Assembly: GCA_903865705.1 (NCBI GenBank)
Contig: CAIPKT010000140.1
Location: 1 to 36,254, forward strand
Source of the DNA: an uncultured Chlorobiaceae bacterium
GTDB taxonomy: Bacteria; Bacteroidota; Chlorobiia; Chlorobiales; Chlorobiaceae
Length of the DNA: 36,254 nt
Direction of reading: 5' to 3'
The translations under genes and the position numbers were made by a program. Below, piece by piece: positions 10,977 to 34,852 of this stretch (positions are counted from its first letter, which is position 1; each line of letters starts with the position of its first letter). Below the pieces are notes generated by a model. It did not search any database. It was not told the origin of the DNA and saw only the letters and a list, made by a program, of their open reading frames with translations.

Positions 10977-11097
10977 CAATATATTTTTATGAGATGTTAA
11001 GCCATTATACGCTTGTCTATTGAGCATATAAGCACATGTTGAGTACTAAACAGTCAGCCATTCCAATTACAAATAATAATTTTCTGGCACTACTAAG

Positions 11098-11970
11098 TTA
11101 TTTTAATATTTGTCGAAGATCAGAAAATGTAGTAAAACAAAAATCTTCCTTTTTAAGAAGACTTATAACTTTACGCAATTTAATTTCAGTTGTTGAGCGC
11201 CCAAGTGAAAAACGCATTCGCGTTGGAAAAGATACGGTATTATCTAAATATGGGGCAGCACGATGCGATAGCTCAAACGGATGTATAAAAAGAACATAAA
11301 AAGAAGCGTCTTTAAGGTAACGGGTAATCAGATTACTTGTTAACCACCACGGTAATATTCGAAGGTAACCGCCACCAGAAACTGGAATATTTTTATCAGC
11401 TATCTTTAAAGTACTTACCTCGAACTCAAAAAAATTTTCTGCCCGATAAATATTTGGCACAACTTTATCAAATCCACTGATATCAATGCAACCATATAAG
11501 GGATGATCACTAAACGCATTTTTACTGGAATCATATAAAAAACCCGCTTTTCTTATCATATCAAGACGTTCTCGATCAAGACTAAATGAGGGTGCACGAT
11601 ATCCTGCTACTGAGAGCCCTGTTAAGTCTTCTATTTTTTTCTTAGCCGCAACTGTTCGTATATAAAAGTCTTTGCTTGGAATTAGAAGTGGGCGTGTGTG
11701 ATCATCGCCATGACATGCTAATTCATATCCACAAGATGATAATTCGAGCATTTTGCTTTGTAGACTTTTAGCAAGATCCGATAAAACAAAAAAAGATGAT
11801 GGTATCTGGAGGTCCTGAAGCATCCCTACGTATCGATCAAGTCCATCAAGCATCGAATAAGAGCGATCTAATTTCTTGTCGATAAAATAATCCGAATGAT
11901 ACCAATCCTCAACATCCATAGATAAAATGGCATATTTTTTTGGCGCTGTTTGAGCTAACAATTCAGTCAT
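11098..11970 (-). CDS. Polysaccharide deacetylase, exosortase-locus type
   Basis: 290 residues with the NodB deacetylase motifs: metal-site LSMDVEDWYH (Asp19, Asp22), HGDDH (His87, His91) and GYRAPSFS with Arg125, then a C-terminal FIHPFELSHR segment with a further histidine. The DVEDWYH form rather than TFDDG is what I associate with the deacetylase subfamily found in exosortase/exopolysaccharide loci, which fits the exosortase module 9 kb away. It would remove acetyl groups from GlcNAc-like residues. There is no signal peptide, so it should act in the cytoplasm or on lipid-linked intermediates. The ATG at 11970 is preferred over a TTG directly before it. Confidence 0.83.
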   Translation of the reverse strand: MTELLAQTAPKKYAILSMDVEDWYHSDYFIDKKLDRSYSMLDGLDRYVGMLQDLQIPSSFFVLSDLAKSLQSKMLELSSCGYELACHGDDHTRPLLIPSKDFYIRTVAAKKKIEDLTGLSVAGYRAPSFSLDRERLDMIRKAGFLYDSSKNAFSDHPLYGCIDISGFDKVVPNIYRAENFFEFEVSTLKIADKNIPVSGGGYLRILPWWLTSNLITRYLKDASFYVLFIHPFELSHRAAPYLDNTVSFPTRMRFSLGRSTTEIKLRKVISLLKKEDFCFTTFSDLRQILK

Positions 11971-14951: not shown

Positions 14952-16085
14952 TTAATACTTTTTCCATACAACCCTATTCACATAATCGGTATAACTGAGT
15001 ATTAACCGAACCACCTTATCAGATACATTCGGCATCGAATAATCCGCTACCTGCCGCAAACTCCGATGCACACCACGGGCCTGAGTGTCGAGAATCGCCA
15101 GCGCCTGCGTGACACGATCAACTTCAAGACCAACCATCATCACTGAAGCTTCTTCCATACCTTCAGGCCGCTCATGAGCCTCGCGGATATTAATAGCAGG
15201 GAAATTCAGAATTGAAGATTCTTCGGTAATAGTGCCGCTGTCGGAGAGCACTGCCTTGGAATGCATCTGCAGATTGACATAATCGCTAAACCCGAGAGGT
15301 TTAAGCAGTTCAACAAGCGGATTAAACGCAACACCGCTTGCGTCAATCCGCTTGCGAGTTCGTGGATGGGTTGAGACTATCACCCGTTTTCCATACTCTT
15401 CTGCAAGCCTGTTCAGTATCTCAACAAGCTTCAAAAAATTCCTGTCTGATTCGATGTTCTCCTCACGGTGAGCACTGACCACAAAGTAATCACCCTCAAT
15501 AAGACTCAGGCGATCGAGCACATGTGAACGGTCAATCTTTTCACGGTAATGCGTCAGCACCTCAAACATTGGACTTCCGGTCTTGATAATCCGGTCGGGA
15601 GGCAACCCTTCACGAAGTAGATATTCCCGTGCAATATCGCTGTAGGTCAGGTTGATATCGGCCGAATGATCAACTATCTTGCGATTGATCTCTTCCGGTA
15701 CCCGCTGGTCAAAACAACGATTACCGGCCTCCATGTGAAAAACAGGAATCTTCCTGCGCTTGGCCGGATAAACGGTAAGGCATGAGTTGGTATCGCCAAG
15801 AATCAAAAGTGCATCTGGCTTTTCAGTGGCCATAACCGCATCCGCTTTCGCAATGATCAACCCTACGGTTTCAGCCGCCGATGAACCCGCGGCCTCAAGA
15901 AAATGGTCAGGCTTACGAATAGCAAGATCATCAAAAAATATCTGGTTCAGTTCATAATCGTAATTCTGCCCTGTATGCACCAGCACATGTTCCGTATGCT
16001 CATCCAGTTTCGCCAGCACCCGCGAAAGACGGATAATCTCCGGCCTGGTACCAACAATGGTCATCACCTTTAATTTTTTTACCAC
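14952..16085 (-). CDS. fnlC: UDP-N-acetyl sugar 2-epimerase of the L-FucNAc pathway (CapG/FnlC/WbjD)
   Basis: 377 residues of the non-hydrolysing UDP-GlcNAc 2-epimerase family: GTRPEIIRL at the start, VSAHREEN in the middle and [11 protein letters not shown] near the UDP site. In the FucNAc pathway this enzyme carries out the last step, C2 epimerisation of UDP-N-acetyl-L-pneumosamine to UDP-N-acetyl-L-fucosamine. It stands right after CapF- and CapE-type genes, which fixes the assignment over general WecB. The frame starts with GTG at 16085; an ATG seven codons in is possible but would leave a very short ribosome-site spacing. Confidence 0.88.
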
Positions 16086-16140: not shown

Positions 16141-17259
16141 TTAGACGTTCAGAAAATAAGTATCAATCTTTTCAGGATTAAAAATCTCACTTGCCCAAAA
16201 AAGGGTTACCAGTTCGCCTTCACCTATGTTCGTAATATGGTGTGTATATCCTGGCGGAATATCTACAACCTTGAACTCTTTGCCTGCAACCCGATGCTCT
16301 ATGACCTCAGTTCCGTCAACACGGCGGAATCGAATCACGGCATCGCCTTCAACAACCATAAACTTTTCTGTCTTTGTATGGTGATAATGGTTGCCTCTGG
16401 TAATTCCTGGTTTGGTACGTGAAACAAAAATCTGCCCGAATGTCTTGCTTTTCATCATTTCGGCAAGGCTCCCCCGTTCATCGGTTCTGATATTGAGCGA
16501 ATAGGCAAAATCCTCCCCCTCAAGATATGAGAGGTAGGTGGCATAGAGCGCTCTGACCAATGGACTGTCAAATTCTGGCATAAGCAAGGTTTGACGCGAC
16601 TCACGAAATGACATAATCAACTCCGCAAGCTCAACAAGCGTAATAGGATAAGCCGTTAAATCCGGACCGTAAGCAAAGCCAGATTCCTTTTTTTCATCAG
16701 GAGAGGGTATTTCACCAATCAAAGCCGCAACAACATCATCAATATAGGTCAGTTCAATCAAACGAACAGGATCAGAAATCGTGACCGGCTGACCATGGGC
16801 TATACTGTAGCAAAATGTAGCCGTGACGGAATTGTAGTTCGGGCGGCACCATTTGCCAAAAAGGTTCTTGAACCGGTAAACAACCGTTAGCGCTCCGGCA
16901 GTTTCAGCAAAATCCCTAAGCACCTGCTCAGCCTGAAGCTTGCTGAGTCCATAGGGGTTGTCAAGCTCAGCCTGAATGGATGAGGCAAGAATGATCTTTG
17001 GAGTCCTTTTTAAACGCTTTAGTATGGCACAAATCTCATCAGTCAGCCCTGCATTTCCGGTTCTGAATTCCTCATCGTTCTTGGGCCGATTAACCCCCGC
17101 AAGATGAAAAATAACCTCAGCCTCACCAAGCATTGCCTCTAGTTCCGCTGGAACATTATCACAATCAAATTCCAGAAGCCTGACACTCTCCATCGTTCGC
17201 AAAACAGAGCAAAGATTTCTCCCAACAAACCCTTTCGATCCAGTTACAAGAATGTTCAT
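16141..17259 (-). CDS. fnlB: CapF/FnlB/WbjC reductase: SDR domain with C-terminal cupin
   Basis: 372 residues. The N-terminal SDR domain has the nucleotide-binding [17 protein letters not shown] and the Tyr-x3-Lys pair in [13 protein letters not shown]. The C-terminal domain from about residue 250 is a cupin, with the metal-site cluster [17 protein letters not shown] and further histidines. This two-domain arrangement is diagnostic of CapF, which takes the CapE product to UDP-N-acetyl-L-pneumosamine: epimerisation by the cupin, NADPH reduction by the SDR part. The ATG at 17259 directly starts the Rossmann strand, so the nine codons upstream were excluded. CapE lies immediately upstream. Confidence 0.92.
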
Positions 17260-17275
17260 TTTATTTCTAAGAATA

Positions 17276-18298
17276 TTAAACGTCAACCCTCTCTCCTCTT
17301 ATTGCAGCATTCACACAATCAAGCTTCAAAAGCAACGCACACATACTGTCCACGTCCTCTCTGGTAGTATTATGCGAATTATAATCCTCCTTCAACGATA
17401 CCTCTTCACGCCCTTCGCTGAAAAATGCCGCATAGTTCAAGTCCCTATTATCTGCAGGAACGCGGTAATACCCTCCCAAATCTTGAGCTACGCTCATCTC
17501 TTCACGGGTCAGAAGACTTTCATAAAGTTTTTCTCCATGCCGTGTACCGATAATGGTAACAGGAACGTCGGTCTTAAGCAACTTCTTGAGCGCCAGCGCC
17601 AAGGTCTCAATGGTTGCACTTGGAGCCTTCTGCACAAAGGTGTCTCCAGGCTGGCCATGCGTAAATGCATAAAGCACCAGATCAACCGCATCGTCAATAG
17701 TCATCATGAAACGGGTCATGTTTGGATCAGTGATAGTCATGGGCTTGCCCTCCTGAATATGCTTCAGAAACAAAGGAATTACCGAGCCCCTGCTTGCCAT
17801 CACGTTACCATAGCGAGTCACATTAATCACCGTTCGGCTTCCGGAAACGCGAGACTGTGCAACAGCAATCTTCTCCATCATGGCTTTTGAAATACCCATA
17901 GCGTTGATAGGATAAACTGCCTTGTCTGTGCTAAGGACTACCACCCGCTTAACACCTACGGCAGTTGCCTGAGTCAACACGTTATGTGTACCCATAGCAT
18001 TAGTTCGAAGCGCTTCAACGGGGAAAAACTCACATGAGGGAACCTGTTTCAGAGCTGCTGCATGAAAGATGAAATCCACCCCCTCCATCGCATCACGCAC
18101 GCTATCCGCATTACGCACATCCCCTATATAAAACTTAAGCTTTGAATTTGCATACAACTTACGCATATCGTCCTGCTTCTTCTCGTCACGACTAAAAATA
18201 CGAATTTCAGCGATTTCAGTCTGAAGAAAGCGGCGCAGTACGGCATTGCCAAAGGTGCCTGTGCCACCTGTTATGAGAAGTGTTTTACCTCTGAACAT
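17276..18298 (-). CDS. fnlA: UDP-GlcNAc 4,6-dehydratase/5-epimerase (CapE/FnlA/WbjB)
   Basis: 340 residues of the CapE type: TGGTGTFGNAVLRRF at the start, HAAALKQVP, then LSTDKAVYPINAMGISK, in which methionine replaces the usual SDR tyrosine, as in inverting 4,6-dehydratases. It performs the first step of UDP-L-FucNAc synthesis, removing the 6-hydroxyl and epimerising C5 of UDP-GlcNAc. The gene order CapE, CapF, CapG on the transcript follows the biochemical order. The second dehydratase in the window (34845-36254) is the membrane-bound CapD/WbpM type and serves another branch. Confidence 0.92.
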   Translation of the reverse strand: MFRGKTLLITGGTGTFGNAVLRRFLQTEIAEIRIFSRDEKKQDDMRKLYANSKLKFYIGDVRNADSVRDAMEGVDFIFHAAALKQVPSCEFFPVEALRTNAMGTHNVLTQATAVGVKRVVVLSTDKAVYPINAMGISKAMMEKIAVAQSRVSGSRTVINVTRYGNVMASRGSVIPLFLKHIQEGKPMTITDPNMTRFMMTIDDAVDLVLYAFTHGQPGDTFVQKAPSATIETLALALKKLLKTDVPVTIIGTRHGEKLYESLLTREEMSVAQDLGGYYRVPADNRDLNYAAFFSEGREEVSLKEDYNSHNTTREDVDSMCALLLKLDCVNAAIRGERVDV

Positions 18299-21958: not shown

Positions 21959-22708
21959 TTAAATAGCAATATTTGCAAAGGACATAATATTTTTAAAATC
22001 ACAACAATTCCGCAGTAACAAATGAGGGCTTTTAAAATCATCTGCTCTATCTTGAATCAACTCATCAGTCCAGTTCCACCACTTTAGGTCACACAATTTT
22101 TTAATGATATCTTCACTGAATCGAAAACGAATTAAACGGGCTGGAATGCCACCAACAATTGCATAAGGAGGAACATCTTTACTAACTACCGCACCTGCAC
22201 CAATAATAGCCCCATCGCCAATGGTAACACCATCCAAAATCGTCGCATGATGACCAATCCATACATCGTTTCCTATAGTAATAGGGCGATATTCGATCAA
22301 ACATGGATTTGAAATAAAATTAACAGTATGTTTAATCGCAGAATAGAATCCAGGGAAAGTAGAGACATTATCTGTTGGGTGTGTCCCTGTACCAATCACC
22401 ACACCTGGACCTATCGAACAAAATCTTCCAATAGAGCATTGGCTGATTCGACAATTGATACCGCAGTATGTATGTCGACCCATGTAAACATAGCTTAGTA
22501 CTGAACCATTCCAAATACGGTTTAACCCTTCAAATTGGCAAAATGAATCTGCATTTGAACCAGGAGCAAACTGTACACCATCATATCTAAAGCGCGATAA
22601 ATATGTGCGTGAATGATGACGTATCGCCTCTTTTATGGCAGAAAAAGCACCCAACAATACACTCATCATTAACAACCTCGTGGATTTTAGGTTTGATCTA
22701 ATAGTCAT
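21959..22708 (-). CDS. CatB/xenobiotic-type hexapeptide acetyltransferase
   Basis: 249 residues. The beta-helix carries SIGRFCSIGPGVVIGTGTHPTDN, in which the histidine is the expected catalytic base, a long loop (about residues 118-143), then IGNDVWIGHHATILDGVTIGDGAIIGAG and PPYAIVGGIPARLIRFRF. The C-terminal LKWWNW patch is typical of the CatB/VatD branch. In a glycan locus the acceptor is presumably a sugar. ATG at 22708; it stands 26 bp from the polymerase gene. Confidence 0.84.
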   Translation of the reverse strand: MTIRSNLKSTRLLMMSVLLGAFSAIKEAIRHHSRTYLSRFRYDGVQFAPGSNADSFCQFEGLNRIWNGSVLSYVYMGRHTYCGINCRISQCSIGRFCSIGPGVVIGTGTHPTDNVSTFPGFYSAIKHTVNFISNPCLIEYRPITIGNDVWIGHHATILDGVTIGDGAIIGAGAVVSKDVPPYAIVGGIPARLIRFRFSEDIIKKLCDLKWWNWTDELIQDRADDFKSPHLLLRNCCDFKNIMSFANIAI

Positions 22709-22734: not shown

Positions 22735-23883
22735 TTAGGTACATATTGACTTTCTTTTAAATGGGAGCACAATATTTATTATTTTATTATTATTTTTACC
22801 ATTAGCCAGATAAATAAAAATAAAATAAAACGGCACGAAATCATATTGAGTAAAGAAATTTGATGTATCCGTACTCATTCTTATTAAAGCAGCAGCAAAC
22901 AAAATAAATAAAATCCGGTTTCTTCTATATAAATATGTTGATGATAACAAAATTAATACTATATAAACAAAACTGAACAAGCCAACAAATGAATGAAGTC
23001 TAATATATGAATTATGATAATTATAGTACCAATCCTGCATATATGAGTCTGCCCTAACATCTGAACCAAAAACTATTGTATATAAATTTAAATTATTGAA
23101 ATAGTGACCCCATATCTGATCTCGCCCCGTTTCGAGCCCATCTGTTGCAAATTTATTAATAGCGTTATCAGGAATAATATAATTGACAAAAGATGCAAAT
23201 ACCTGATCCACAATCAAATACCCAAATATCGAGACCACAATAATTAGAAAATAATATTTTTTATTTTTATGACCCATAAAAGCCAAAAGCCCGACTAACA
23301 TTACTGAAGATGCGATTATCCCTGAACGACCTACGGCCCAAATTGAAATAATTAATGCAATAAGCGCAGGGAATATATCTATTTTTTTATCGTTGGTTAT
23401 AGAAACAACATACAAAGCAATACAAGAAAAAATAACAACAATAGAAATTGAATTACGACTACTGTAATCATTTCCAATAATCTCAGAATAAGTAAATATC
23501 CGCCATAAAAAATACAAAACAAGGGAATAAAAAGGGATATATCCTACAACTTTGCTTATCTTCCTTCGGATTAAAAGCAAAGCTATTCCAGAGTTAGCCA
23601 TTATATTAATAACTAAAACAAATACCCCTTCTTTTCTATTTACAATAAGAGCTGAAGCAAGAAGAAATAACAAGGTAATCCCTACAAATAAATATATGTA
23701 TGAATTATCTTTACTTTTATTCATAAATTCCATTAGCAACGCGGCAAGACCTATTAAACTACTAAATATAAATATGAACTTATTATCCATAAAATAATTA
23801 GCCAAAACAGATATCATATAACAAAAAAACAAATATGAAGAAGCCATATCTGCAATAAAATTATCATTAAATTTTTGCTTCAT
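22735..23883 (-). CDS. O-antigen polymerase (Wzy)-like membrane protein
   Basis: 382 residues with about ten hydrophobic helices and one large periplasmic-type loop after the GRSGI segment. The loop ends in the NYHNSYIRLHSFVGL motif, similar to the His-Asn-x-x motif before a late helix in Wzy/WaaL proteins. Wzy joins lipid-linked repeat units at the periplasmic face. The gene is very AT-rich and lysine/isoleucine-rich, unlike the FucNAc genes, as is common for the variable centre of such loci. Sequence conservation in this family is low, so the call rests on topology, motif and context. Confidence 0.72.
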   Translation of the reverse strand: MKQKFNDNFIADMASSYLFFCYMISVLANYFMDNKFIFIFSSLIGLAALLMEFMNKSKDNSYIYLFVGITLLFLLASALIVNRKEGVFVLVINIMANSGIALLLIRRKISKVVGYIPFYSLVLYFLWRIFTYSEIIGNDYSSRNSISIVVIFSCIALYVVSITNDKKIDIFPALIALIISIWAVGRSGIIASSVMLVGLLAFMGHKNKKYYFLIIVVSIFGYLIVDQVFASFVNYIIPDNAINKFATDGLETGRDQIWGHYFNNLNLYTIVFGSDVRADSYMQDWYYNYHNSYIRLHSFVGLFSFVYIVLILLSSTYLYRRNRILFILFAAALIRMSTDTSNFFTQYDFVPFYFIFIYLANGKNNNKIINIVLPFKRKSICT

Positions 23884-24083: not shown

Positions 24084-24944
24084 TTACAGCTTATTATTGC
24101 CAAATAGTGTATCATAATCCACTTTAGGAAAAACGTCTAAATATGTTTGATTATTAGAGTTGGCATTATAAATATTATTTTTTAGCGAACCCAGATATTT
24201 ATATTTTTTAAATATCTCGGAATGTCTTCTCATTTGATATTCACTATCAATATGATTTATACTTTTTATATCTGCTTGCATAACATGATCTTTGCTTTGA
24301 TCATAAAAGTATATAAAAAGGCCATTAAACCAGTCATGATCAATACCAATGAGGTAGATTTTTTCAAACCCAAGATACATCGCCACACTTATTGCAACTT
24401 CTGATACTGACCCTATATCTGGAATTCTACATAAATCAATTGGTGTATTAAAATTGCCATCCCATAAAGAATATTCAACCCAATGAATAATTCTATTTTT
24501 AAAAATACAATTCTCCTCAATTAATACCCTATCCCCAATATGAATAAACATTTCTGCGTCTCCAGTTGCAGATTCCATCACTTTGAGCCATTGTATAAAA
24601 TCATTAATTTCAAATGTACCCAGATGACTCTTTAAAAGAGGAGGAATTACATGAAATTTAGATTTTATTATTTTGAAATCAGGGTGCGCAAATGTATTGC
24701 TTACACTAATAACAAACTCACCCTCAAGCTTTTTCATGTCTTGACTTTTTACTGATGAACCAGCTCCCATTATAAAACATCGAGAACTACTATATTTATT
24801 TTTTATCTTTAAGTTTTCCTTAAGCAGTTGTTTATCCTCCAAACTCATTAACGATAATTTAATATTTCCATTTACTTTATTAAGGGTGTGCAAAATACCA
24901 GGTGATATAAACCATTTTTTTATAAATTGTATCATACTAAACAT
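24084..24944 (-). CDS. DUF115/Maf-like protein, candidate nonulosonic-acid transferase
   Basis: 286 residues. A Rossmann-like half begins with CFIMGAGSSV (nucleotide-binding type loop, 60-65) and VISVSNTFAH; the later stretch SEVAISVAMYLGFEKIYLIGIDHDW (181-205) and the end YLDVFPKVDYDTLF are the pattern of the DUF115 (MptE-like) family. That domain also forms the core of Maf proteins, which attach pseudaminic or legionaminic acid to flagellin, and a similar pattern occurs in GT42 sialyltransferases. With genes for a CMP-activated nine-carbon acid directly upstream, transfer of that acid to the glycan is the best-supported role. A flagellin target is not supported, since no flagellar gene is here. 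Confidence 0.68.
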   Translation of the reverse strand: MFSMIQFIKKWFISPGILHTLNKVNGNIKLSLMSLEDKQLLKENLKIKNKYSSSRCFIMGAGSSVKSQDMKKLEGEFVISVSNTFAHPDFKIIKSKFHVIPPLLKSHLGTFEINDFIQWLKVMESATGDAEMFIHIGDRVLIEENCIFKNRIIHWVEYSLWDGNFNTPIDLCRIPDIGSVSEVAISVAMYLGFEKIYLIGIDHDWFNGLFIYFYDQSKDHVMQADIKSINHIDSEYQMRRHSEIFKKYKYLGSLKNNIYNANSNNQTYLDVFPKVDYDTLFGNNKL

Positions 24945-25008: not shown

Positions 25009-25641
25009 TTATGTCTCTAACCATTTCACCACTTCGAACACTTCTGCATACTTTACACCTATTCGCTGGCCAGCATTTTCTGCTTCATTTTTAAAGAAAT
25101 GTACCCATTTTTCCCCAGTCCTTTGCATTTCTGATTCATGAGCTGCTATAGCCTGAGCTTTAAGGCTCCAAGTATTAGTAATATCTATATAAAAATTTCC
25201 CTTAAAATCTAATGGTGAGTGGTACCAATTGCTTCGGTACATTAAAAGCCGAGGAACATGACGGCAACTGTGCAAAGATGCTTTCGCAACTGCATGATGA
25301 TCGTGGTGAATATCACCGGACCAATGTGCATAAACAAGATCAATCTTTTTATCTTCAACAACTTTTAAAATCTCAATGTTTAAAGTATCATTAAATTCAA
25401 TTTCAAGAGTTTTGAACTTTCCGCAAATTAGTCCTGTAACTCCTAATATCTTCATAGCTTTTTCAGCTTCCTCAAGGGCTATTTCATTCGATCGGACTTC
25501 GTGGTTGTATTGATTTGCAAAACCTGAGACTGTTGCAACAAACACATAAACATTATCACCTTGCTGCGCATGCTTGCCCAGAGTACCTCCGCAGCCCAAT
25601 TCCACATCATCGAAATGTGCTCCAATTGCTAATATATTCAT
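25009..25641 (-). CDS. PIG-L/LmbE-family N-deacetylase
   Basis: 210 residues, with the zinc-site motif AHFDDVELGCGG (His9, Asp11, Asp12) and the second motif HHDHH at 111-115. These enzymes hydrolyse the N-acetyl group of GlcNAc-type sugars or sugar conjugates. The start overlaps the WbqC-family stop as ATGA, so it belongs to the five-gene chain that begins with the NeuB-like synthase. It could free an amino group on the nonulosonic acid or its precursor, for another acyl group to be added; the substrate is unproven. Confidence 0.85.
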   Translation of the reverse strand: MNILAIGAHFDDVELGCGGTLGKHAQQGDNVYVFVATVSGFANQYNHEVRSNEIALEEAEKAMKILGVTGLICGKFKTLEIEFNDTLNIEILKVVEDKKIDLVYAHWSGDIHHDHHAVAKASLHSCRHVPRLLMYRSNWYHSPLDFKGNFYIDITNTWSLKAQAIAAHESEMQRTGEKWVHFFKNEAENAGQRIGVKYAEVFEVVKWLET

Positions 25642-26339
25642 TTACTCATCCTTAATAATTCTCGTGAGGTCTTTATACCATGATTAAAAAGCACGTCCAA
25701 TACACTCAAAAAGGGAACAAACCCACCGAATTGCTGTGTATAGACCGGATGGGTAAAATCTTGCCATATCACATCAATACCTGCCCTAGCAAATGGTTCA
25801 ACTATAAAATAATCCCGCGCTCCCACGCCAGAAAGATAGTGTGTCGCTGAAACTTTCTGGAGTAAATTCACTAACAACTCATTTTTTGTCCCAACCGGGT
25901 CGAGGTCGCTTGACCAAACCCAAGGTATTCGTACATCAAGCATATCCATCAACATTGCAATAAATGCCATATTGAAATCACGCAGTAGTTGAAACGGCTT
26001 TGCATACAATTGTGAGACTTCTTGCATCATCTCACTGTAAAAGGGTGCTTTGCGGTAGTTGTGCTCGATAAGTCGCAAATTATCTTTACGCCAATCAATA
26101 ATTGTGGATAGTTCAATTTGGCTGATGGCGGTATTGAGTGGCGCTTTGTTGACACTTACTGAAAGCCATTTTTCGCCTTGAGCTGTCTTTATTTTATCCC
26201 GGTTTGTCCAGCCTCTACCTTTACTAACATATTGCACATGATCCAATGCGATATACATATCTGCATAAAGGAAACGATGAAAAAATCCCAGGTAAGGTGC
26301 AAAGTCTGGCTGGTGAATAACAACGATTTTTTTTTTCAT
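25638..26339 (-). CDS. WbqC-family protein
   Basis: 233 residues. It begins with the family signature VVIHQPDFAPYLGFFHRFLYADMYI (His9, Gln10, Pro11, Pro15, Gly18), followed by DHVQYVSKGRGWTNRDKIKT and a conserved LSVSV strand. WbqC-like proteins occur in many O-antigen and nonulosonic-acid loci; their exact reaction is not established, though links to amino-sugar modification have been suggested. ATGA overlaps on both sides tie it to the PseG-like hydrolase and the PIG-L deacetylase. Confidence 0.85.
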   Translation of the reverse strand: MKKKIVVIHQPDFAPYLGFFHRFLYADMYIALDHVQYVSKGRGWTNRDKIKTAQGEKWLSVSVNKAPLNTAISQIELSTIIDWRKDNLRLIEHNYRKAPFYSEMMQEVSQLYAKPFQLLRDFNMAFIAMLMDMLDVRIPWVWSSDLDPVGTKNELLVNLLQKVSATHYLSGVGARDYFIVEPFARAGIDVIWQDFTHPVYTQQFGGFVPFLSVLDVLFNHGIKTSRELLRMSK

Positions 26340-27289
26340 TTAATTAGATTCATTAGTGCTCCAATAACATGCTGAGTACCCTGCAATCCAATATTTCGCA
26401 GACCAGCCTGACTCATTTTTTCCAGCGGCAAATCTGTGCTGAACAAGGGCCGCGATAATGATTCGTGGTACCCTGCAAAAACAGAACCGCCCAGCCGCTG
26501 AAGCTCATTACCGACAGGTATCTCAAACAGCTCATTTGCAATCACCACGCAGGGCAAACCGGATGCATTGGCCTCAAACGGTGTGATCCCACCGCCGGTG
26601 ATTGCAAGTTCGTGATAAGAGTACTCCTCAATCATTGAAGGTACACCACATTTTAAAGTAAAACTATCGGTCAAAACCTCATGCAGTGTTGCGGTATGCA
26701 TAAACGCCGCCCCAATAACAACGGTGGCTGTCAAACCCATCTCTTTAAGTAACTTCACCACTTTAACCGTCACACCATAGGTGTCACTTCCGCCAAGTGT
26801 CACAAGAATACTTCCCGACTGTTTACGTTCTCGTGTGTAGAGCTGAATTTCCGGATTAAGTATCAGATACTCTGCACCTCGCAATACTTTTGCTCCTTGA
26901 AGTGGTTCATCGTCATCAAAGGCTAGTGCAGCGATGTGCAGGTCAGCCAGTGCAGCTCCCGAGCCTCGATCGTCGAAGGTCACAAGCGCAATCTTCGCTT
27001 TCTTGATGTTTTCTGCATGATGGATATCAGTATCAAGACGGTCATTTATCCACAAGGTGATACCATCTTTCATGATCAGCGAAGCTTCCCAATTACTGGT
27101 GTAATTAAGCAGATTCACTACCCTGTGTCGTACACCTCGTTCAACAAGATTTTGGAGTGATGGGGTATGATCGTTCAGATATATGATATATGGCCGACCT
27201 GCCTGTTGCAGGGCTTCTGCCAGATTCAGTGCACGGTAATAATGACCCATACCACGGTGATGAGAACTTTCTATACAGATTGCGTACAT
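26336..27289 (-). CDS. PseG/SpsG-like UDP-sugar hydrolase
   Basis: 317 residues of GT-B-like fold. The start ICIESSHHRGMGHYYRALNLAEAL carries the G-x-G-H-x-x-R loop (His16, Arg19) of PseG; later come SILVTLGGSDTYG and AITGGGITPFEANASGLPCVV, the nucleotide-site pattern shared with MurG. PseG removes the nucleotide from a UDP-linked 2,4-diacetamido sugar so the synthase can use the free sugar. Its place next to SpsF- and NeuB-like genes mirrors the spsE-spsF-spsG order known from Bacillus. It overlaps the cytidylyltransferase gene by 19 bp. Confidence 0.85.
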   Translation of the reverse strand: MYAICIESSHHRGMGHYYRALNLAEALQQAGRPYIIYLNDHTPSLQNLVERGVRHRVVNLLNYTSNWEASLIMKDGITLWINDRLDTDIHHAENIKKAKIALVTFDDRGSGAALADLHIAALAFDDDEPLQGAKVLRGAEYLILNPEIQLYTRERKQSGSILVTLGGSDTYGVTVKVVKLLKEMGLTATVVIGAAFMHTATLHEVLTDSFTLKCGVPSMIEEYSYHELAITGGGITPFEANASGLPCVVIANELFEIPVGNELQRLGGSVFAGYHESLSRPLFSTDLPLEKMSQAGLRNIGLQGTQHVIGALMNLIK

Positions 27290-27948
27290 ATTCCAATAGC
27301 CTCTTCTGTTCCTATCCAGCGATCAGGTGCATGAGTTGCTATTGCACAAGCTCGATTGTAGTCCTCTTCGGTATCAACAGTCAATCGTAAATCTGGACGG
27401 TGTTTGGATGTTGAAACCTCCAACAGGCCTGTTTTGAAAAGCTCCGGATGCTCCTGAATATATTCATTCACATGCTCCCTGTGATTTGGTGCATGACCCT
27501 CATGTGCACTTCTCTCCAAAGCTGCAATAGTAAATATCTCAGCTCCAACTCCCAAAGGCATTATGCCAAATGAGTGTGTATAGTCATTTTGCTCTGAAAG
27601 ATGCCGCTCAATCAGTCGCGTCAACTCCTCAATATCGGTAAACGGGTTATCCGCTGTTAGCCTCACTATATGCTCAAAACTGTTTTCGAGGGCACACTGG
27701 TAATAGCGATCCAGCACATCAGTTTCGCTGCCACGAAATACAGAAACACCTTCATCCAAACAATGTTCAGCAATTATATCATCCTGCGGCAAATTGCTTG
27801 TTGCAACCACTATCTTAAAAGGAAAGTCGACAAGCAAGACTCTGCCAAGCACATGATCCAGAAGTATCTTACCTGCAACAGGTTTCAGTACTTTACCCGG
27901 CAGGCGGGTCGATCCTGTTCTGGCTTGAATAATGATACCAATACTCAT
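27271..27948 (-). CDS. SpsF-type cytidylyltransferase (CMP-nonulosonate synthetase candidate)
   Basis: 225 residues. The nucleotide-binding start IIIQARTGSTRLPGKVLKPVAGK and the later RLTADNPFTD are characteristic of SpsF, a branch of the NeuA/KdsB family. It should activate the nine-carbon acid with CTP. The ATG at 27948 is chosen because it makes an ATGA overlap with the synthase stop; five more codons upstream are open but would lie deep in that gene. No separate NeuA/LegF-type gene is present, so this is the only CMP-transferase candidate in the window. Confidence 0.83.
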   Translation of the reverse strand: MSIGIIIQARTGSTRLPGKVLKPVAGKILLDHVLGRVLLVDFPFKIVVATSNLPQDDIIAEHCLDEGVSVFRGSETDVLDRYYQCALENSFEHIVRLTADNPFTDIEELTRLIERHLSEQNDYTHSFGIMPLGVGAEIFTIAALERSAHEGHAPNHREHVNEYIQEHPELFKTGLLEVSTSKHRPDLRLTVDTEEDYNRACAIATHAPDRWIGTEEAIGICTQSV

Positions 27949-28961
27949 GCCAAATCGCTCCAATTGAGCACACTATCTTTCTCTATATCTTTGGCCACCC
28001 TTCGTCCAGCAATTTGCTCAATATATTTCGGGTCAATGCCATAACCAGGCCGTTTTACAGCTATATCCTCCTCAGTCAAGCGCGTTCCATCCTTAACGCT
28101 GCGATTGAGCACCACACTTTTTCGGTTATTTCGACGAGTAATTTTTTCGCTATTAGCAGGACGCTTGATTCCGGATCCTCGCATTTCCTCAAAATTACGT
28201 ACCGCATCAACCAGCCATTTCATTTCTGCCGGATCAGCAGAAAGCATATGGTCTGGTCCATCTGCACTTTTGTCATAGGTAAAATGCTTTTCGATTACCC
28301 GGGCACCCATAGCCACTGCACACAGGCAGGCGACAGGAGACTGTGTGTGATCAGAGTAGCCTATATCTAGTTGCGGAAAGGCCTGCATCATGGTCTGCAT
28401 GGCGGCAAGATTGACATTCTCGGCATGAGTTGGATAACTTGTAATGGCATGTAACAAAATCAGTTTTTCATTTCCTTCCGCAAGAATTGCGGCCACCGAC
28501 TCACGCACCTCATCCATTGTACACATACCAGTTGAGAGCAGAAGCGGCTTTCCAGTTCGGGCAACATAACGCAGAAAAGGGATATTTACTGCATCATCTG
28601 AGCCGATCTTGTGTGCGCCGACACCACACTTTTCCAGCAAGTCTGCATCAGTTGCATGTGAAGGTGTTGAGAACCAGTCGAGACCTTTAGATTCAGCATA
28701 TTTGAATACATCATGATGCAAGGCCTCGTTCACCTCATATTTCAGGAACAGCTCATGCTGCGAGACCACACCGGTATTTTCCATATTAAAAATAGCTTTG
28801 GTGCTCGCTATGGTGTCGGCTCTATAGGTTTGTAACTTGACAGCATCGACACCGCAGGCATGCGCCTCATCAATCAAACGCTTCGCCTCGGCAAAAGTTG
28901 TAAAATTGCCACCAATCTCTGCAATGATATAGCAACGGTCTGAACGATAATTGTTAAACAT
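27945..28961 (-). CDS. NeuB/LegI/SpsE-type nonulosonic acid synthase
   Basis: 338 residues. The TIM-barrel part shows YIIAEIGGN, VDAVKLQTY, KIGSDD, LLSTGM, LHAITSYPT, IGYSDHTQS and IEKHFTYD with metal-site histidines; residues about 285-338 form the C-terminal SAF (antifreeze-like) domain. The family condenses phosphoenolpyruvate with a free N-acetylmannosamine-type sugar to make a nine-carbon 2-keto acid (Neu5Ac, legionaminic or pseudaminic acid, or a relative). The GGN in place of the usual GVNH-x-N motif suggests a non-standard substrate. It is the first gene of the ATGA-linked chain down to 25009. Confidence 0.92.
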   Translation of the reverse strand: MFNNYRSDRCYIIAEIGGNFTTFAEAKRLIDEAHACGVDAVKLQTYRADTIASTKAIFNMENTGVVSQHELFLKYEVNEALHHDVFKYAESKGLDWFSTPSHATDADLLEKCGVGAHKIGSDDAVNIPFLRYVARTGKPLLLSTGMCTMDEVRESVAAILAEGNEKLILLHAITSYPTHAENVNLAAMQTMMQAFPQLDIGYSDHTQSPVACLCAVAMGARVIEKHFTYDKSADGPDHMLSADPAEMKWLVDAVRNFEEMRGSGIKRPANSEKITRRNNRKSVVLNRSVKDGTRLTEEDIAVKRPGYGIDPKYIEQIAGRRVAKDIEKDSVLNWSDLA

Positions 28962-29247: not shown

Positions 29248-30321
29248 TTATTTCCCGATTAATTGACTTCTATTAATATAGTTACGCACTATGAACGACC
29301 GATCACCTACCTGAGCAGGCTGATCCTCGGTTTTCCTTGGCAAATAGCATTTCCGACAAACCTCACTTTGTAAAAATCCATGATGCGACAACTGTGTTTG
29401 ACGCACTGCCTGCATCTTTTCGCCATGCCAGACATCATGAACAGTTTCATGATGAATGTTACCGATAACATCCTGGTTCTCTTCATCATTTGAGCACTTC
29501 ATCACCAGACCGTCAGCCCCGATCACCAGACGCTGATACTGCTGCGGACAGGTAAATTCTTCCAGATACTCAATGTCTGTATCGTTGAAAAGATAGTCGA
29601 TCAGGGGATTGAATGCCACTAAATCCACAAGTGGCTCAAATGTGCTGTAGTAGGCATCAATACCGCTCTCCACAATTGAAGGCCAAATGCCCTGAACTTT
29701 AATAACCGGTCGCTTGAGATTATGCTCTTTTTTATAATTGTATATCTCTTTTATTTTTCCAAGCAGATCATCAAATTTCAGCGGTTTTCGTACACTTTCA
29801 TAAGTTTTTCCTGTGCCGTCAATTGAGATGGTTATCCAGTCAACGCCAGCTTCAACCATCTGTATAAAAAAGGGTAAGCCCAGTTTACTGCCATTCGTCA
29901 ACATCGATACCTCTTTAATGCCATGTGCCTTGGCATAATGTATCGATTCAATAAATTTCGGATGCAATGTCGCTTCGCCTCTTAAACTTAGGCGTATTGC
30001 TGGAACCTTTCCCTCTATTTCATCAATAATTTTTTTATATAACTCCCAGTCCATCTTCGTGACATGTACTTTCTTCCTAAATTCCTCTGTAATAGTATAG
30101 CACATTGGACACTTGAGATTGCAAACTGACGAGAGTTCAATATCCACAAGCAAAGGATAATCTGAAATTATCTGATTTTGCGGATATGTCGACCAATTAA
30201 GGCGATACTGATGATACTCTTTTTCCCAACCCCCACCTCGATACTGTTCAAAAAGATCTTCTCTTTCATTTGTATCCAAGGAATAATTTCCCTTGTTGAT
30301 CGGTACGTTAAGCATGGTCAT
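29248..30321 (-). CDS. Radical SAM/SPASM enzyme of the nonulosonate module
   Basis: 357 residues. The cluster motif CNLKCPMC places Cys67, Cys71 and Cys74; RGEATLHP takes the GGEP position near 114-121. The C-terminal SPASM region has Cys258, Cys276, Cys322 and Cys325 (CRKC). Radical SAM/SPASM proteins cleave or rearrange unreactive C-H bonds in peptides and in some sugars (for example the aminoglycoside enzyme BtrN). The gene lies 4 bp after the epimerase gene in a transcript with LegB and a nucleotidyltransferase, so a sugar or activated precursor is a more likely substrate than a peptide. It is not a member of the textbook legionaminic pathway. Confidence 0.82.
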   Translation of the reverse strand: MTMLNVPINKGNYSLDTNEREDLFEQYRGGGWEKEYHQYRLNWSTYPQNQIISDYPLLVDIELSSVCNLKCPMCYTITEEFRKKVHVTKMDWELYKKIIDEIEGKVPAIRLSLRGEATLHPKFIESIHYAKAHGIKEVSMLTNGSKLGLPFFIQMVEAGVDWITISIDGTGKTYESVRKPLKFDDLLGKIKEIYNYKKEHNLKRPVIKVQGIWPSIVESGIDAYYSTFEPLVDLVAFNPLIDYLFNDTDIEYLEEFTCPQQYQRLVIGADGLVMKCSNDEENQDVIGNIHHETVHDVWHGEKMQAVRQTQLSHHGFLQSEVCRKCYLPRKTEDQPAQVGDRSFIVRNYINRSQLIGK

Positions 30322-30325
30322 ATTA

Positions 30326-31189
30326 TCAATTTTTATAATTGCTACTCAGGATTTTCTCTACTCCCTGCTGAAAGGAGTATTTTGGCTTCCACCCGATAAT
30401 ATTTTCGGCTTTTGATATATCCGCTACGACATCCATCAATTCGTTAGACCGAATAACGTTATCACAGATAATTTTTTTTTCTGTACCTGCAACATTTTGA
30501 ATGATATTAATAACTTCCTGTACACTTAAAGAAGTACCTGAACCTACGTTGTAAACGTTGTAACCAAGCTGTTTATTCAATGTAGCAAGCAATGCGGCCA
30601 ACACATCTTCTATATATATATAATCCCTTTTTGGAATTAAATCCTTTACAATAATAGTTTTTCCGCCATCAAGAACCTGACTGATGATCAAGGGAATTAT
30701 AAAGTTTTCGGCTTGACCGATTCCGTACACATTAAAAAGGCGTAATGTCGTGACCGGCAAATCGTAGGTGTTTGCATAAAAATTACATACTTGTTCAGCA
30801 AGCCACTTTGTCATCGCGTAGGGATTGCTCGGTCGAACTGCACTATCCTCTCTGATTGGCAAACTATCGGGATGACCATAAACATAAGCACTAACATATG
30901 TCAAGGGAATGTTGCTGGCTCTACAAAATTCAAGAACATTGACCGTACCTATAACATTGGTCTGATAAAACGCTTGTGAATTAACCCAGCTATCTGGAAC
31001 AAATGTCTTGGCTGCCAAATGGTATACATGAACTATATCCTGCTTTAAGAACTTTGCCAAAGTTACCCTATCGGCTATGTTGCCATCTACAGAGCTCAGT
31101 GGCACTACATTCCTGCCAAGATTATTTAAATGGGATACAAGTGTCTTACCAATAAATCCATTCGCGCCCGTAACGAGTATTTTATTCAC
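30326..31189 (-). CDS. NAD-dependent epimerase/dehydratase (extended SDR)
   Basis: 287 residues. The Rossmann motif TGANGFIG is at 7-14, the catalytic set is Ser100 with Tyr124 and Lys128 in NPYAMTK, and RLFNVYG and PKRDYIYIEDV follow as in sugar-nucleotide epimerases and reductases. It probably reduces or epimerises the 4-keto sugar made by the LegB-type enzyme. That would offer a hydroxyl instead of the amine LegC would give, which may explain the missing LegC. The start is GTG at 31189, 8 bp inside the end of the nucleotidyltransferase gene. Confidence 0.82.
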   Translation of the reverse strand: MNKILVTGANGFIGKTLVSHLNNLGRNVVPLSSVDGNIADRVTLAKFLKQDIVHVYHLAAKTFVPDSWVNSQAFYQTNVIGTVNVLEFCRASNIPLTYVSAYVYGHPDSLPIREDSAVRPSNPYAMTKWLAEQVCNFYANTYDLPVTTLRLFNVYGIGQAENFIIPLIISQVLDGGKTIIVKDLIPKRDYIYIEDVLAALLATLNKQLGYNVYNVGSGTSLSVQEVINIIQNVAGTEKKIICDNVIRSNELMDVVADISKAENIIGWKPKYSFQQGVEKILSSNYKN

Positions 31190-31895
31190 AAAGAAAAGTC
31201 GATTTTAATTTTTCAAATTCTTCTATAGCCTGCATATAATCATCCGGCCGACCGATATCCAACCAATATCCAGAAAAATTTCGGACACCTACAGACTGTT
31301 TTGATTCAAGCAAATCTAACATCAAATTATCGAAACCATAACTTTTTTCATTTGGAATATAATTCATAATACTACGATTAACCATATATATCCCCATGCT
31401 AACGATATGCTGACTACTTGGTTTTTCTTTAAATGCAGAAAGATTTCCATAAGAATTAACTTCAAGTACTCCATAATCAATTTTTTGCTCACGCATATAT
31501 GAAGAAATAGTAAATATCTTACGACTATTTAAATGTTCTTCATAAAAATCTGAAAAATTAAGGTCGGTTAAAATATCACCATTCATCACTAAAAAGCTAT
31601 CTGGCAAATCAGATATTATTCGCAAAGGAGCCATAGTGCTCAGAGGTTTTTTTTCTAATGAATAATCAATGTTAATATCCCATTTCTCTCCGTTCTGAAA
31701 AAACGCCTTAATAATCTCTGCTTGATGGTTTACTGCCAGAGTGACATGATCAAATCCATGTTGGGCGAGTTGACGAATGATCACTTCCAATATTGGAAAT
31801 TCACCAATAGGCATTAGCGGTTTTGGTAAAACAACAGTATATGGATATAATCGGGTTCCTCTACCTCCTGCAAGAATAACTGCTCGTTTAGACAT
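31182..31895 (-). CDS. Sugar-1-phosphate nucleotidyltransferase (PtmE/GMP-type)
   Basis: 237 residues. The pyrophosphorylase signature LAGGRGTRLYPYT is at 9-20, followed by PKPLMPIGEFPILE, MNGDILTD (metal aspartate) and FKEKPS. It makes an NDP-sugar from a sugar 1-phosphate. Next to LegB, the analogue is PtmE, which makes GDP-glucosamine for legionaminic acid in Campylobacter; PtmE has CBS domains that this shorter protein lacks. The nucleotide (GDP, UDP or CDP) cannot be told by eye. It overlaps the LegB stop by 8 bp. Confidence 0.83.
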   Translation of the reverse strand: MSKRAVILAGGRGTRLYPYTVVLPKPLMPIGEFPILEVIIRQLAQHGFDHVTLAVNHQAEIIKAFFQNGEKWDINIDYSLEKKPLSTMAPLRIISDLPDSFLVMNGDILTDLNFSDFYEEHLNSRKIFTISSYMREQKIDYGVLEVNSYGNLSAFKEKPSSQHIVSMGIYMVNRSIMNYIPNEKSYGFDNLMLDLLESKQSVGVRNFSGYWLDIGRPDDYMQAIEEFEKLKSTFLCE

Positions 31896-32895
31896 TGTAT
31901 ATACCTGCCTTGTATTTTAAGAGGTTAGTAGGTATCATGAACCATTCGGCAGTCTCAGCAAGACCACGTTTAAAACCTTCTCTATTACCATAAGAAGGTT
32001 GAAAGCCAAAAAGTTTTTTAGCTTTAGAATTATCAGCCCATAATCTTTCAACTTCTGAATTTTCAGGACGCAAACGAAGATCATCCGTGATAATATCAAT
32101 TTCAGTTTTCATAACTTCAGCAATCAATAAGGCTGTTTCACCGATAGAAATTTCAAAATTGCTGCCTAAGTTAACTACCTCACCCAACCCATGATCTGAG
32201 TTCATCGCAGCAATAAATCCCGCTACAGTGTCCTGCACAAAATTGAAATCGCGCGTAGGTGAGACTGCGCCAAGTTTTATTTGACGCTTTCCGTTTGCAA
32301 TCTGCGTAATAATGGTGGGAATCACAGCTCTTGCAGACTGCCGCGGGCCGTAGGTGTTGAACGGTCTAGCAATAACCACTGGCAGTCCAAATGAAGCATA
32401 AAAGGAATAGGCCAACTGATCTGCTGCAATTTTAGTAGCAGAATACGGTGATTGCCCCTGCAAGGGATGCTCTTCGGTAATCGGCACAAATCGCGCCGTG
32501 CCATACACTTCGCTCGTGGAGGTGTGAACGATTTTCTTAACACCAAGTTCCCGCGCAGCCTGCAAGACATTGAGCGTACCTTTAACATTGGTATCAACAT
32601 AGGTATCGGGCGAGTGATACGAGTAGGGTATCGCAATAAGTGCCGCCAGATGCAGTACCACGTCGCAACCTTTCATTGCCTCCTTTACCCCGTGCGGGTC
32701 ACGGATATCACCGGCAAATACTTCAAACTTCCCTTTAATCTCTGGTGCGCAATGGTCGAGCCAACCCCATGAGTTGAAAGAGTTGTAGAGTACGAAGGCA
32801 CGGACATTGTAACCTTGGTGAACCAGGGCTTCGGTGAGGTGTGATCCGATGAAGCCGTCAGCTCCAGTAATAAGGACATTTTTATTGTTCAACAT
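31888..32895 (-). CDS. legB: LegB-type NAD-dependent 4,6-dehydratase
   Basis: 335 residues of extended SDR: GADGFIG at 11-17, YNSFNSWGWLDH, HLAALIAIPYSY, HTSTSEVYGTA (124-133) and Tyr151/Lys155 in SPYSATKIAAD, then ARPFNTYGPRQSARAVIPTII and LRPENSEVERL. From memory of Campylobacter LegB these blocks match closely. LegB removes water from GDP-GlcNAc to give the 4-keto-6-deoxy sugar, the first committed step toward legionaminic acid. It is the first gene of the module's transcript, after a 120-bp gap, and a promoter is expected there. Confidence 0.88.
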   Translation of the reverse strand: MLNNKNVLITGADGFIGSHLTEALVHQGYNVRAFVLYNSFNSWGWLDHCAPEIKGKFEVFAGDIRDPHGVKEAMKGCDVVLHLAALIAIPYSYHSPDTYVDTNVKGTLNVLQAARELGVKKIVHTSTSEVYGTARFVPITEEHPLQGQSPYSATKIAADQLAYSFYASFGLPVVIARPFNTYGPRQSARAVIPTIITQIANGKRQIKLGAVSPTRDFNFVQDTVAGFIAAMNSDHGLGEVVNLGSNFEISIGETALLIAEVMKTEIDIITDDLRLRPENSEVERLWADNSKAKKLFGFQPSYGNREGFKRGLAETAEWFMIPTNLLKYKAGIYNV

Positions 32896-33016: not shown

Positions 33017-34852
33017 TCAGTGGACTTTGCTGATTGGGAATGCATGGCCGTTTGCTTTTTCTTTTGAGACTATTTCGGTGTAGGTGCCAATTCTTTTGAT
33101 CTCACCGTCAGCAAGTTCCACGATCTGTGTGCAGTTTTTGAGTGTGGTTAAACGATGCGCTATTATCATCACTGTGAGATCATCGCCGAGTCTTTCTATG
33201 GCTTGCATGACGGCCTGTTCTGTTTCGTTGTCGAGGGCGCTGGTGGCTTCGTCGAAGATGATGACATCGGCTTGTTTATACAGTGCCCGGGCGATGCCGA
33301 TGCGCTGGCGCTGGCCACCGGAGAGGCGGATACCGCGTTCGCCCACGTAGGTTTGATATTTTTTTGGCCAGCTTTCGATGATGTCGGCAATCTGTGCCTG
33401 AAGGGCGGCTTGCTTGACCCTGGTTTGGTCTATTTTGCCTTTAGCAACTCCAAAGGCTATGTTCTCTTCGATAGTGCTGTCTGCGAGGAATATGGCTTGA
33501 GGCACGTGTGCAATATGCGCTTGCCAGGCGCGGTTGTTGCTTGTACTTATGGGCTGATCGTCAATCTCAAGTGCTCCCTCAGTTGGAGTCAGAAGACCCA
33601 TTACAAGATCAAGCAGCGTACTTTTTCCGCTGCCGGTAACACCAATGAAGCCTATACGACTGCCTTTCTTTATGGTAAAGTTGAGGTTGTTGAGTACCAG
33701 AGAAGTTTGCGCTGTATAACGGAAAGAGAGATCTTTCAGGTTAATGTGTTGCGTAAATGGTAACGGCTTGTCTAACGGCTTATCAATATAGTCTGGAAGA
33801 GGCTGGTCGAGCAGTTCGAGCGTATCGTGCAGCGAGACCTGCCCACCCTGTATGCTTGACCATGATGAATATGCCGCCTGGAGTACTGGTAGCAGACGCT
33901 GGGCTCCCAGCGCAAGTGCTCCGAGAACAGGAATTGCTTTGGCAATACCATCTGGTTGCCTTGCGAGTGCATAGGCCAATAGGGCGATAAGCATCATGCC
34001 TAGTGCTTCAATGCCAAATCGCGGACTTGCACCTATAAAAGTGTTGTTTCCCTGAGCCTTACGTAAGGGGTGATCGGCATTGCGATAGATTTGACAGTAG
34101 GCGGCCTGACTGCCGTCGATCAGGACATCGCGTATGCCGCCCAACCCTTCCTGTAGGGACTTGATAACTTGAGTTGATTCTCGGGCAATGCACTTGCTGT
34201 TTATCAACTGCTGGTTTTGAGTGAGCTTGAGAATAAATACGTAAATCATTCCAAAGCCACCAATAGCTGCCAGCGCAATAACTGGATTGATCGTTAAGAG
34301 GGCCATGAGAATGGTGATCAGCATAATACTTGAGCTGATGAGGGTCAAAGCCGGCACAATGACGCTGTAGATAACCGTGTTTGCTTTTGACGAAATGCCG
34401 TTGATGACTTCACTGCTGTTTCGGGAAACGTGTACCGCATACGGCTGGTAGAGAGTGCGGCGATAAATGCTGATGCTGAGGTCAGCCCCTGTTGCGAAGG
34501 AGAGGCGCGTACTGACCCAGAGAAGCAAAAGGCGCATGGCACCGGATAAGATGGCAGCAATGCCAAATGTGATAGTCAGGGGGAGCAGGAGTTGGCTGGC
34601 ATTGGCAATACCTGCTGCTCTTATGAATGGCTGGGCTGCGGGGAGTTGAAAGATTCTTTCTGGAGCAGTCAATACGGCGAGGAATGGTAGTACAGCGCCT
34701 ATGCTTAGAATTTCGGCAAATGACGCACTGATCATCAAGATGAGTAGCAAACCGAATTGTCCACGTCGTCGAGGGCTGATGTGTTGCCAAAGGCGCGAGA
34801 GAAGTGTTGTAATTGACTGGGTCGCTGGCACTTCTCGTATCGTTTTATACAT
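33017..34852 (-). CDS. ABC transporter, fused permease and ATPase (PglK/MsbA-like flippase candidate)
   Basis: 611 residues. The first half has about six membrane helices (ABC exporter type). The ATPase half has Walker A GVTGSGKST at about 404-412, signature LSGGQRQR at 510-517, Walker B VIIFDEATSALD at 530-541 and the switch histidine in IAHRL. The N-terminal part, SPRRRGQFG followed by LPFLAVLTAPERIF, resembles the PglK group that flips lipid-linked oligosaccharides. No Wzx flippase is encoded in the window, so this is the best candidate for moving the repeat unit across the inner membrane. The ATG at 34852 overlaps the upstream stop by 8 bp; 19 further codons upstream are open but lie in that gene. 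Confidence 0.87.
   Translation of the reverse strand: MYKTIREVPATQSITTLLSRLWQHISPRRRGQFGLLLILMISASFAEILSIGAVLPFLAVLTAPERIFQLPAAQPFIRAAGIANASQLLLPLTITFGIAAILSGAMRLLLLWVSTRLSFATGADLSISIYRRTLYQPYAVHVSRNSSEVINGISSKANTVIYSVIVPALTLISSSIMLITILMALLTINPVIALAAIGGFGMIYVFILKLTQNQQLINSKCIARESTQVIKSLQEGLGGIRDVLIDGSQAAYCQIYRNADHPLRKAQGNNTFIGASPRFGIEALGMMLIALLAYALARQPDGIAKAIPVLGALALGAQRLLPVLQAAYSSWSSIQGGQVSLHDTLELLDQPLPDYIDKPLDKPLPFTQHINLKDLSFRYTAQTSLVLNNLNFTIKKGSRIGFIGVTGSGKSTLLDLVMGLLTPTEGALEIDDQPISTSNNRAWQAHIAHVPQAIFLADSTIEENIAFGVAKGKIDQTRVKQAALQAQIADIIESWPKKYQTYVGERGIRLSGGQRQRIGIARALYKQADVIIFDEATSALDNETEQAVMQAIERLGDDLTVMIIAHRLTTLKNCTQIVELADGEIKRIGTYTEIVSKEKANGHAFPISKVH

Follow-up and report, generated by a model that had tools for sequence, protein, structure and literature searches.

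A locus predicted to make a CMP-activated nonulosonic acid, an unusual sugar that resembles sialic acid, raises the question of which protein transfers that sugar, and to what acceptor. This question is posed by the window, a 36,254-nucleotide stretch of DNA from an uncultured Chlorobiaceae bacterium, in which such a cassette is followed by a gene for a 286-residue DUF115 (PF01973) protein. A passage in a 2018 paper describes a legionaminic acid transferase as yet to be identified where this sugar is used in protein glycosylation (PMC6137143), and part of a 2019 review describes predictions for legionaminic acid transferases as lacking (PMC6388019). Among the titles and opening lines of abstracts listed by searches of open-licence papers, no free-standing DUF115 protein was found to be assigned as a nonulosonate transferase. 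By combining gene context, comparative genomics, profile searches and a structure model, we conclude that the 286-residue protein is likely to be a free-standing CMP-ulosonate transferase built on a Maf/GT42 core and acting on the repeat unit of a Wzy-type polysaccharide.

The DUF115 gene and its neighbourhood

The candidate transferase gene (24084-24944, minus strand, GC 0.29) is a real open reading frame, and the plus strand over this interval is full of stops. The three motifs which had led the initial annotation to DUF115 are present in its product (GAGSSV at G60-V65, GIDHDW at G200-W205 and LDVFP at L269-P273), and in an alignment of 30 relatives G62, S64 and G200 are invariant (30/30), with D202 (28/30), N262 and F272 (24/30 each) and L269 (22/30) mostly kept. 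Searched alone, the protein matches PF01973 over residues 178-205 with 29.8 bits (E 6.3e-7), below the curated cut-off of 34.6, which makes it a divergent DUF115 member, and matches nothing in NCBIfam; the single sequence likewise finds nothing in the PDB. All 10 sequences of its alignment (A1) match PF01973 at E <= 1, the best at 2e-17. By tblastn its relatives with 54-56% identity occur in metagenome-assembled genomes of Nitrospira, a gammaproteobacterium and Elusimicrobiales, and plasmid records (2 matches) include one from Neorhizobium with 54% identity; phage records gave no match. As a separate observation, the viral contigs L027 and L028 (3947-5446) encode a DUF115 protein followed in frame by an apparent GT2 domain, and the viral contig L033 (3983-5341) apparently has two DUF115 copies within one frame.

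The gene was also correctly placed next to a module for a CMP-activated acid, as it starts 64 bases downstream of the last gene of the cassette. All cassette genes lie on the minus strand and encode, in order of reading, a LegB-type NAD-dependent 4,6-dehydratase (31888-32895; TIGR04180, 530.5 bits, cut-off 475), a sugar-1-phosphate nucleotidyltransferase (31182-31895; PF00483, 142.1 bits), an SDR epimerase/dehydratase (30326-31189; PF01370, PF16363), a radical SAM/SPASM enzyme (29248-30321; PF04055, PF13186), a NeuB-family nonulosonate synthase (27945-28961; PF03102, 271.3 bits), an SpsF-like cytidylyltransferase for CMP activation (27271-27963; PF02348, 107.3 bits), an SpsG/PseG-like NDP-sugar hydrolase (26336-27289; TIGR03590, 76 bits, below its cut-off), a WbqC family protein (25638-26339; PF08889, 220.9 bits) and a PIG-L family deacetylase (25009-25641; PF02585, 69.9 bits), which would de-N-acylate the sugar or a precursor. 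The presence of a radical SAM/SPASM enzyme in a LegB-NeuB cassette lacking an aminotransferase is an observation in its own right; this gene is 68-90% identical to those of the Nitrospira, Rhizobium, Neorhizobium and same-genus loci described below (L002, L011, L034, L087) and 61% identical to that of Elusimicrobiales (L004), and its product may form an unusual nonulosonate precursor.

The genes around the cassette point to a polysaccharide locus. Upstream lies a minus-strand ABC transporter gene (33017-34909; PF00005, 112.6 bits) whose product is flippase-like by position. On the other side of the DUF115 gene, on the same strand, are a gene for a 382-residue membrane protein (22735-23883) that contains nine hydrophobic segments, matches no Pfam family and is Wzy-like by position and length, and a hexapeptide acetyltransferase gene (21959-22708; PF00132), a homologue of which also adjoins the DUF115 gene in L002, L004 and the Neorhizobium locus L010. 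Low GC is usual for genes that fix a polysaccharide repeat unit; the DUF115 gene (0.29) and the Wzy-like gene (0.28) fall below the cassette genes (0.33-0.46). Among those open reading frames of the window that were scanned with Pfam, the remaining glycosyltransferases found were four of GT4 type and two initiating sugar transferases, which lie beyond the Wzy-like gene. Elsewhere in the window (16141-18298 and 14952-16085) are genes for a CapD-like dehydratase, for an epimerase that ends in a polysaccharide-biosynthesis domain and for a UDP-GlcNAc 2-epimerase; together their products may provide a sugar of the L-FucNAc type.

The cassette and DUF115 genes in other genomes

Comparison with other genomes revealed the whole cassette, in the same order and with the DUF115 gene last, in Rhizobium (L011) and Neorhizobium (L034). 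In Nitrospira (L002) and Elusimicrobiales (L004) the cassette is found from the SDR or the radical SAM gene onward and also ends in DUF115, with one gene between PIG-L and DUF115 in each. A gammaproteobacterial locus (L003) carries a variant cassette in which the radical SAM gene is absent and a DegT aminotransferase gene is found instead; its NeuB is 40% identical to that of the window, and its PIG-L and DUF115 proteins, encoded at the cassette end, are 75% and 54% identical. The association of DUF115 with the cassette thus extends across phyla, even though the genes in between vary.

Some loci count against the transferase reading. A genome of the same genus (L087) has a cassette with eight genes matched to those of the window (identities: LegB 86%, SDR 75%, radical SAM 90%, NeuB 93%, SpsF 86%, SpsG 88%, WbqC 91%, PIG-L 77%) and no DUF115 gene, and in Neorhizobium L010 (11240-12750) a DUF115 relative (54%) and an acetyltransferase are encoded with no cassette around them. 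The L010 replicon holds the whole cassette elsewhere, with its own DUF115 copy, which is 29% identical. Three further genomes of the genus encode, in another arrangement, a protein related to the radical SAM enzyme at 55-56% identity, and these too have no DUF115 match.

It could be that another enzyme transfers the nonulosonate and that the DUF115 protein adds a different sugar, CMP-activated or not, or is an accessory. The cassette in L087 that lacks DUF115 is in line with this, as is the low GC of the DUF115/Wzy-like pair, which sets it apart from the cassette and may mean a separate history. However, no sialyltransferase-type family was matched by the Pfam-scanned open reading frames of the window, and the slot after PIG-L in L087 is filled by a gene for a 402-residue protein (10631-11839) with a weak match to the LA_1612 O-antigen family, as interchangeable transferases would predict. 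We therefore regard this alternative as unlikely, and propose that the slot behind PIG-L is a place for interchangeable transferases. The L087 locus also contains, together with a second nonulosonate gene set, a gene for a LIC12162 family transferase (793-2571; 398.9 bits, cut-off 225); this family and the LA_1612 family, both beside the same cassette there, differ from DUF115 in length and in family models.

The association of DUF115 genes with CMP activation was also analyzed across the phylum of the window. A search for PF01973 in 296 genomes found matches at E <= 1e-4 in 20 and above the cut-off in 12, and 14 genomes were scanned for cytidylyltransferases (PF02348) and flippases (PF01943). 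Of the 16 free-standing DUF115 genes, 13 had a cytidylyltransferase gene no more than 10 kb away, whereas this was true for 0 of 52 flippase genes located more than 20 kb from DUF115. The corresponding Fisher P of 1.8e-11 is overstated, because the relatives are not independent and PF01943 also takes in flippases outside polysaccharide loci, but the contrast is still large. To arrive at these counts, 8 of 24 PF01973 matches were excluded as below the cut-off and 2 for length (G179, 434 residues; G197:C12, 1073 residues), neither of which has a cytidylyltransferase within 10 kb (13/18 if both are included), and the proteins of G000 and G057 were added (11/14 if both are left out). One of 55 flippase matches was a second piece of an open reading frame already counted and was removed; of the other 54, 2 have a DUF115 gene within 20 kb. 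With the profile built in this analysis, no DUF115 protein was detected at L069 (the 434-residue case), L079 or L080. Three free-standing DUF115 genes have no cytidylyltransferase within 10 kb. Two of them belong to G127; the third, in G037, adjoins genes for an SDR and a 2-hydroxyacid dehydrogenase that elsewhere accompany a cytidylyltransferase.

The sugar modules next to these relatives differ. In L036, which also holds a flippase and a Wzy-like gene, DUF115 lies two genes from PseI, with PseB and PseC in the locus, all above curated cut-offs, and L035 and L037 encode NeuB and a PseF-like cytidylyltransferase. By comparison, L070, L072 and L074 have no NeuB, and encode beside DUF115 an HpcH/HpaI aldolase, a 2-hydroxyacid dehydrogenase, a GAPDH-like enzyme, a HAD protein (in L072 assigned from its 34% identity to the L070 protein, with no Pfam match) and a cytidylyltransferase; L078, also without NeuB, encodes an HMGL-like aldolase, a HAD protein and a cytidylyltransferase. 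These aldolase modules are possible NeuB-independent routes to CMP-ulosonates. As many DUF115 relatives lie near a cytidylyltransferase and not near NeuB, a nine-carbon donor is not general among them, which suggests that the relatives use several kinds of CMP-activated ulosonic acids.

Fold and profile comparisons

An AlphaFold2 model of the 286-residue protein, built from 10 aligned sequences, has a mean pLDDT of 73.8 and a pTM of 0.76; its residues 204-225 are poorly defined and may, by their position, correspond to the lid of CstII. A Foldseek search of the PDB with this model listed unrelated folds and gave no match with an E-value of 0.001 or less. All Z-scores given here come from a rerun with VIA-align 2, which covered the structures ranked highest by Foldseek. 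As the initial annotation had anticipated, the top structure was a Maf flagellin glycosyltransferase (5mu5, Magnetospirillum magneticum; Z 14.3, rmsd 3.7, 204 residues aligned), and the predicted model aligns to residues 253-512 of this 666-residue protein, consistent with the proposal that only the core is present.

According to part of one published account, Maf enzymes attach nonulosonic acids (PMC11339370). The central PF01973 fold is common to Maf and the DUF115 protein, whereas the N-terminal degenerate Rossmann domain and the C-terminal helical domain of Maf are both absent from the latter. Maf acts on flagellin, while no flagellin gene is found near the DUF115 gene, as had been noted from the start, or in the whole genome of the window (Flagellin_N search; control matches in 4 of 14 genomes). 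With two Maf domains and flagellin missing, the 286-residue protein is not a Maf. It might still be Maf-like and O-glycosylate a protein other than flagellin, with no polysaccharide involved, since Maf is its best fold match and surface proteins may exist in this organism: the gene at 1445-2320 is one we take to be exosortase-like, and 1445-2990 presumably encodes, by look, an exosortase and an EpsI-type partner beside the polysaccharide locus. We find this explanation improbable, however, given the absence of the Maf N- and C-terminal domains, the position of the gene in a polysaccharide locus that also encodes a Wzy-like membrane protein, and the glycosyltransferase-like or flippase-like genes that accompany the relatives in L035-L037 and in most of L070-L078 (mostly read from the starts of sequences).

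Sequence profiles favour a relationship to the sialyltransferases of family GT42, although E-values are modest. The A1 profile (10 sequences) matched, among PDB entries, CstII (E 2e-4), CstI (0.0086), Maf (0.19) and MptE (0.23). Profile A3, made from six close-family sequences, matched CstII (0.0015-0.0023) and CstI (0.0081); up to E 10, Maf and MptE are both absent from its matches. Profile A5, made from 13 broader relatives that include no close-family member, matched CstII (3.8e-4), CstI (4e-4), Maf (0.0034) and a Pasteurella sialyltransferase (0.0077), with MptE at 0.02 over 33 positions. A3 and A5 thus agree while having no sequence in common, and they are homologous by hhalign (probability 99.7), with most A5 sequences coming from loci above the PF01973 cut-off. 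The sialyltransferase fold matches include CstII (Z 10.0, 184 residues aligned), human ST8SiaIII (9.9) and other mammalian enzymes at about 8 to 9.4; SteA, a different kind of protein, also scored 9.9.

CstII and CstI of Campylobacter resemble the DUF115 protein in being small and single-domain, and the profile match extends over the donor half. The donors would differ, being Neu5Ac for CstII and CstI and the predicted product of a LegB-type route for the DUF115 protein. Excerpts on CstII assign the role of general base to H188 and acceptor binding to Arg129, Asn51 and Tyr81 (PMC4202792). In two MAFFT alignments, which disagree in the lid, H188 falls opposite a gap or R239, and none of the acceptor residues could be matched in the 286-residue protein, with no clear counterpart for Arg129 and Asn51; as the alignments did not place the catalytic residues, GT42 membership is not established. 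H241 is a candidate base that is kept in close members, with a Tyr nearby instead in L034. Published excerpts describe ulosonate transferases from capsule or O-antigen loci that are either free-standing or modular, namely the pseudaminyltransferase KpsS1 (GT118) and bacterial retaining Kdo transferases (GT99 and GT107) (PMC12887879). No structure of these enzymes appeared as a match to the DUF115 protein in the PDB sequence or profile searches or among the fold matches listed, where none of GT38, GT52, GT99, GT107 or GT118 was recognised, a result that excludes nothing.

The initial annotation had named a structural match to MptE-type pterin kinases, with their active-site residues, as evidence against a transferase. 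The result is mixed, as the archaeal 6-hydroxymethyl-7,8-dihydropterin pyrophosphokinase MptE of M. jannaschii (8sd5) is the second-best fold (Z 11.0, 165 residues aligned), thiamin pyrophosphokinases score 7.7, and PF01973 itself carries the MptE name. Because Maf, GT42, GT29 and MptE have this fold in common, fold cannot choose between a transferase and a kinase. In contrast, sequence and context argue against an MptE function: MptE does not appear up to E 10 in the A3 search, A1 and A5 match its glycine loop only, the DUF115 protein is bacterial and encoded in a polysaccharide locus, its gene follows a sugar-nucleotide cassette in several phyla, and with a canonical FolK in the genome (PF01288, E 4.3e-40; G000:C59) there is no need for an MptE. 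It is therefore very unlikely that the protein is a pyrophosphokinase of the MptE type or a different small-molecule kinase of this fold.

Proposed role and what it would mean

The best-supported reading is that the 286-residue protein acts in the manner of a GT42 or Maf-core transferase. This predicted activity is consistent with the GT42 profile matches, the conserved cassette and the cytidylyltransferase link, and the suggestion of a polysaccharide as the putative acceptor agrees with its context, namely the Wzy-like protein, the four GT4 genes, the two initiating transferases and the lack of flagellin. In the proposed pathway, LegB would make an NDP-4-keto sugar that the cassette subsequently modifies, NeuB would condense the modified sugar with phosphoenolpyruvate, SpsF would activate the resulting nonulosonate with CTP, and PIG-L would trim an acyl group. 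With a CMP-nonulosonate as its presumed donor, the DUF115 protein would then add the sugar to the repeat unit as this grows on its lipid carrier, and the Wzy-like protein would polymerise such units into a surface polysaccharide. By analogy to GT42, the anomeric centre may be inverted in this reaction, and the conserved N-terminal ~50 residues of the DUF115 protein may contact the membrane.

What is new in this system is the occurrence of the known Maf/GT42 core in a free-standing form, and, if this reading is true, the Maf core would function without the flagellin-specific domains. A small DUF115 protein encoded beside its donor pathway is also a direct biochemical test case. In the sampled phylum, four types of acid-sugar module precede free-standing DUF115 genes: one with NeuB, HpcH/HpaI and HMGL-like types that each include a HAD protein and a cytidylyltransferase, and an SDR type composed of an SDR, a 2-hydroxyacid dehydrogenase and a cytidylyltransferase. 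A more tentative proposal, to which we assign somewhat less than even weight, is that free-standing bacterial DUF115 proteins as a whole form a glycosyltransferase family that has gone unrecognised, with CMP-ulosonic acids in general and not nonulosonates alone as donors. If so, the aldolase modules would point to CMP-ulosonates which have not yet been described. The PF01973 family name probably points wrongly to vitamin metabolism for these proteins and, if the proposal is true, those now named after MptE would be re-read as CMP-ulosonate transferases, each marking a locus for a polysaccharide that contains such a sugar.
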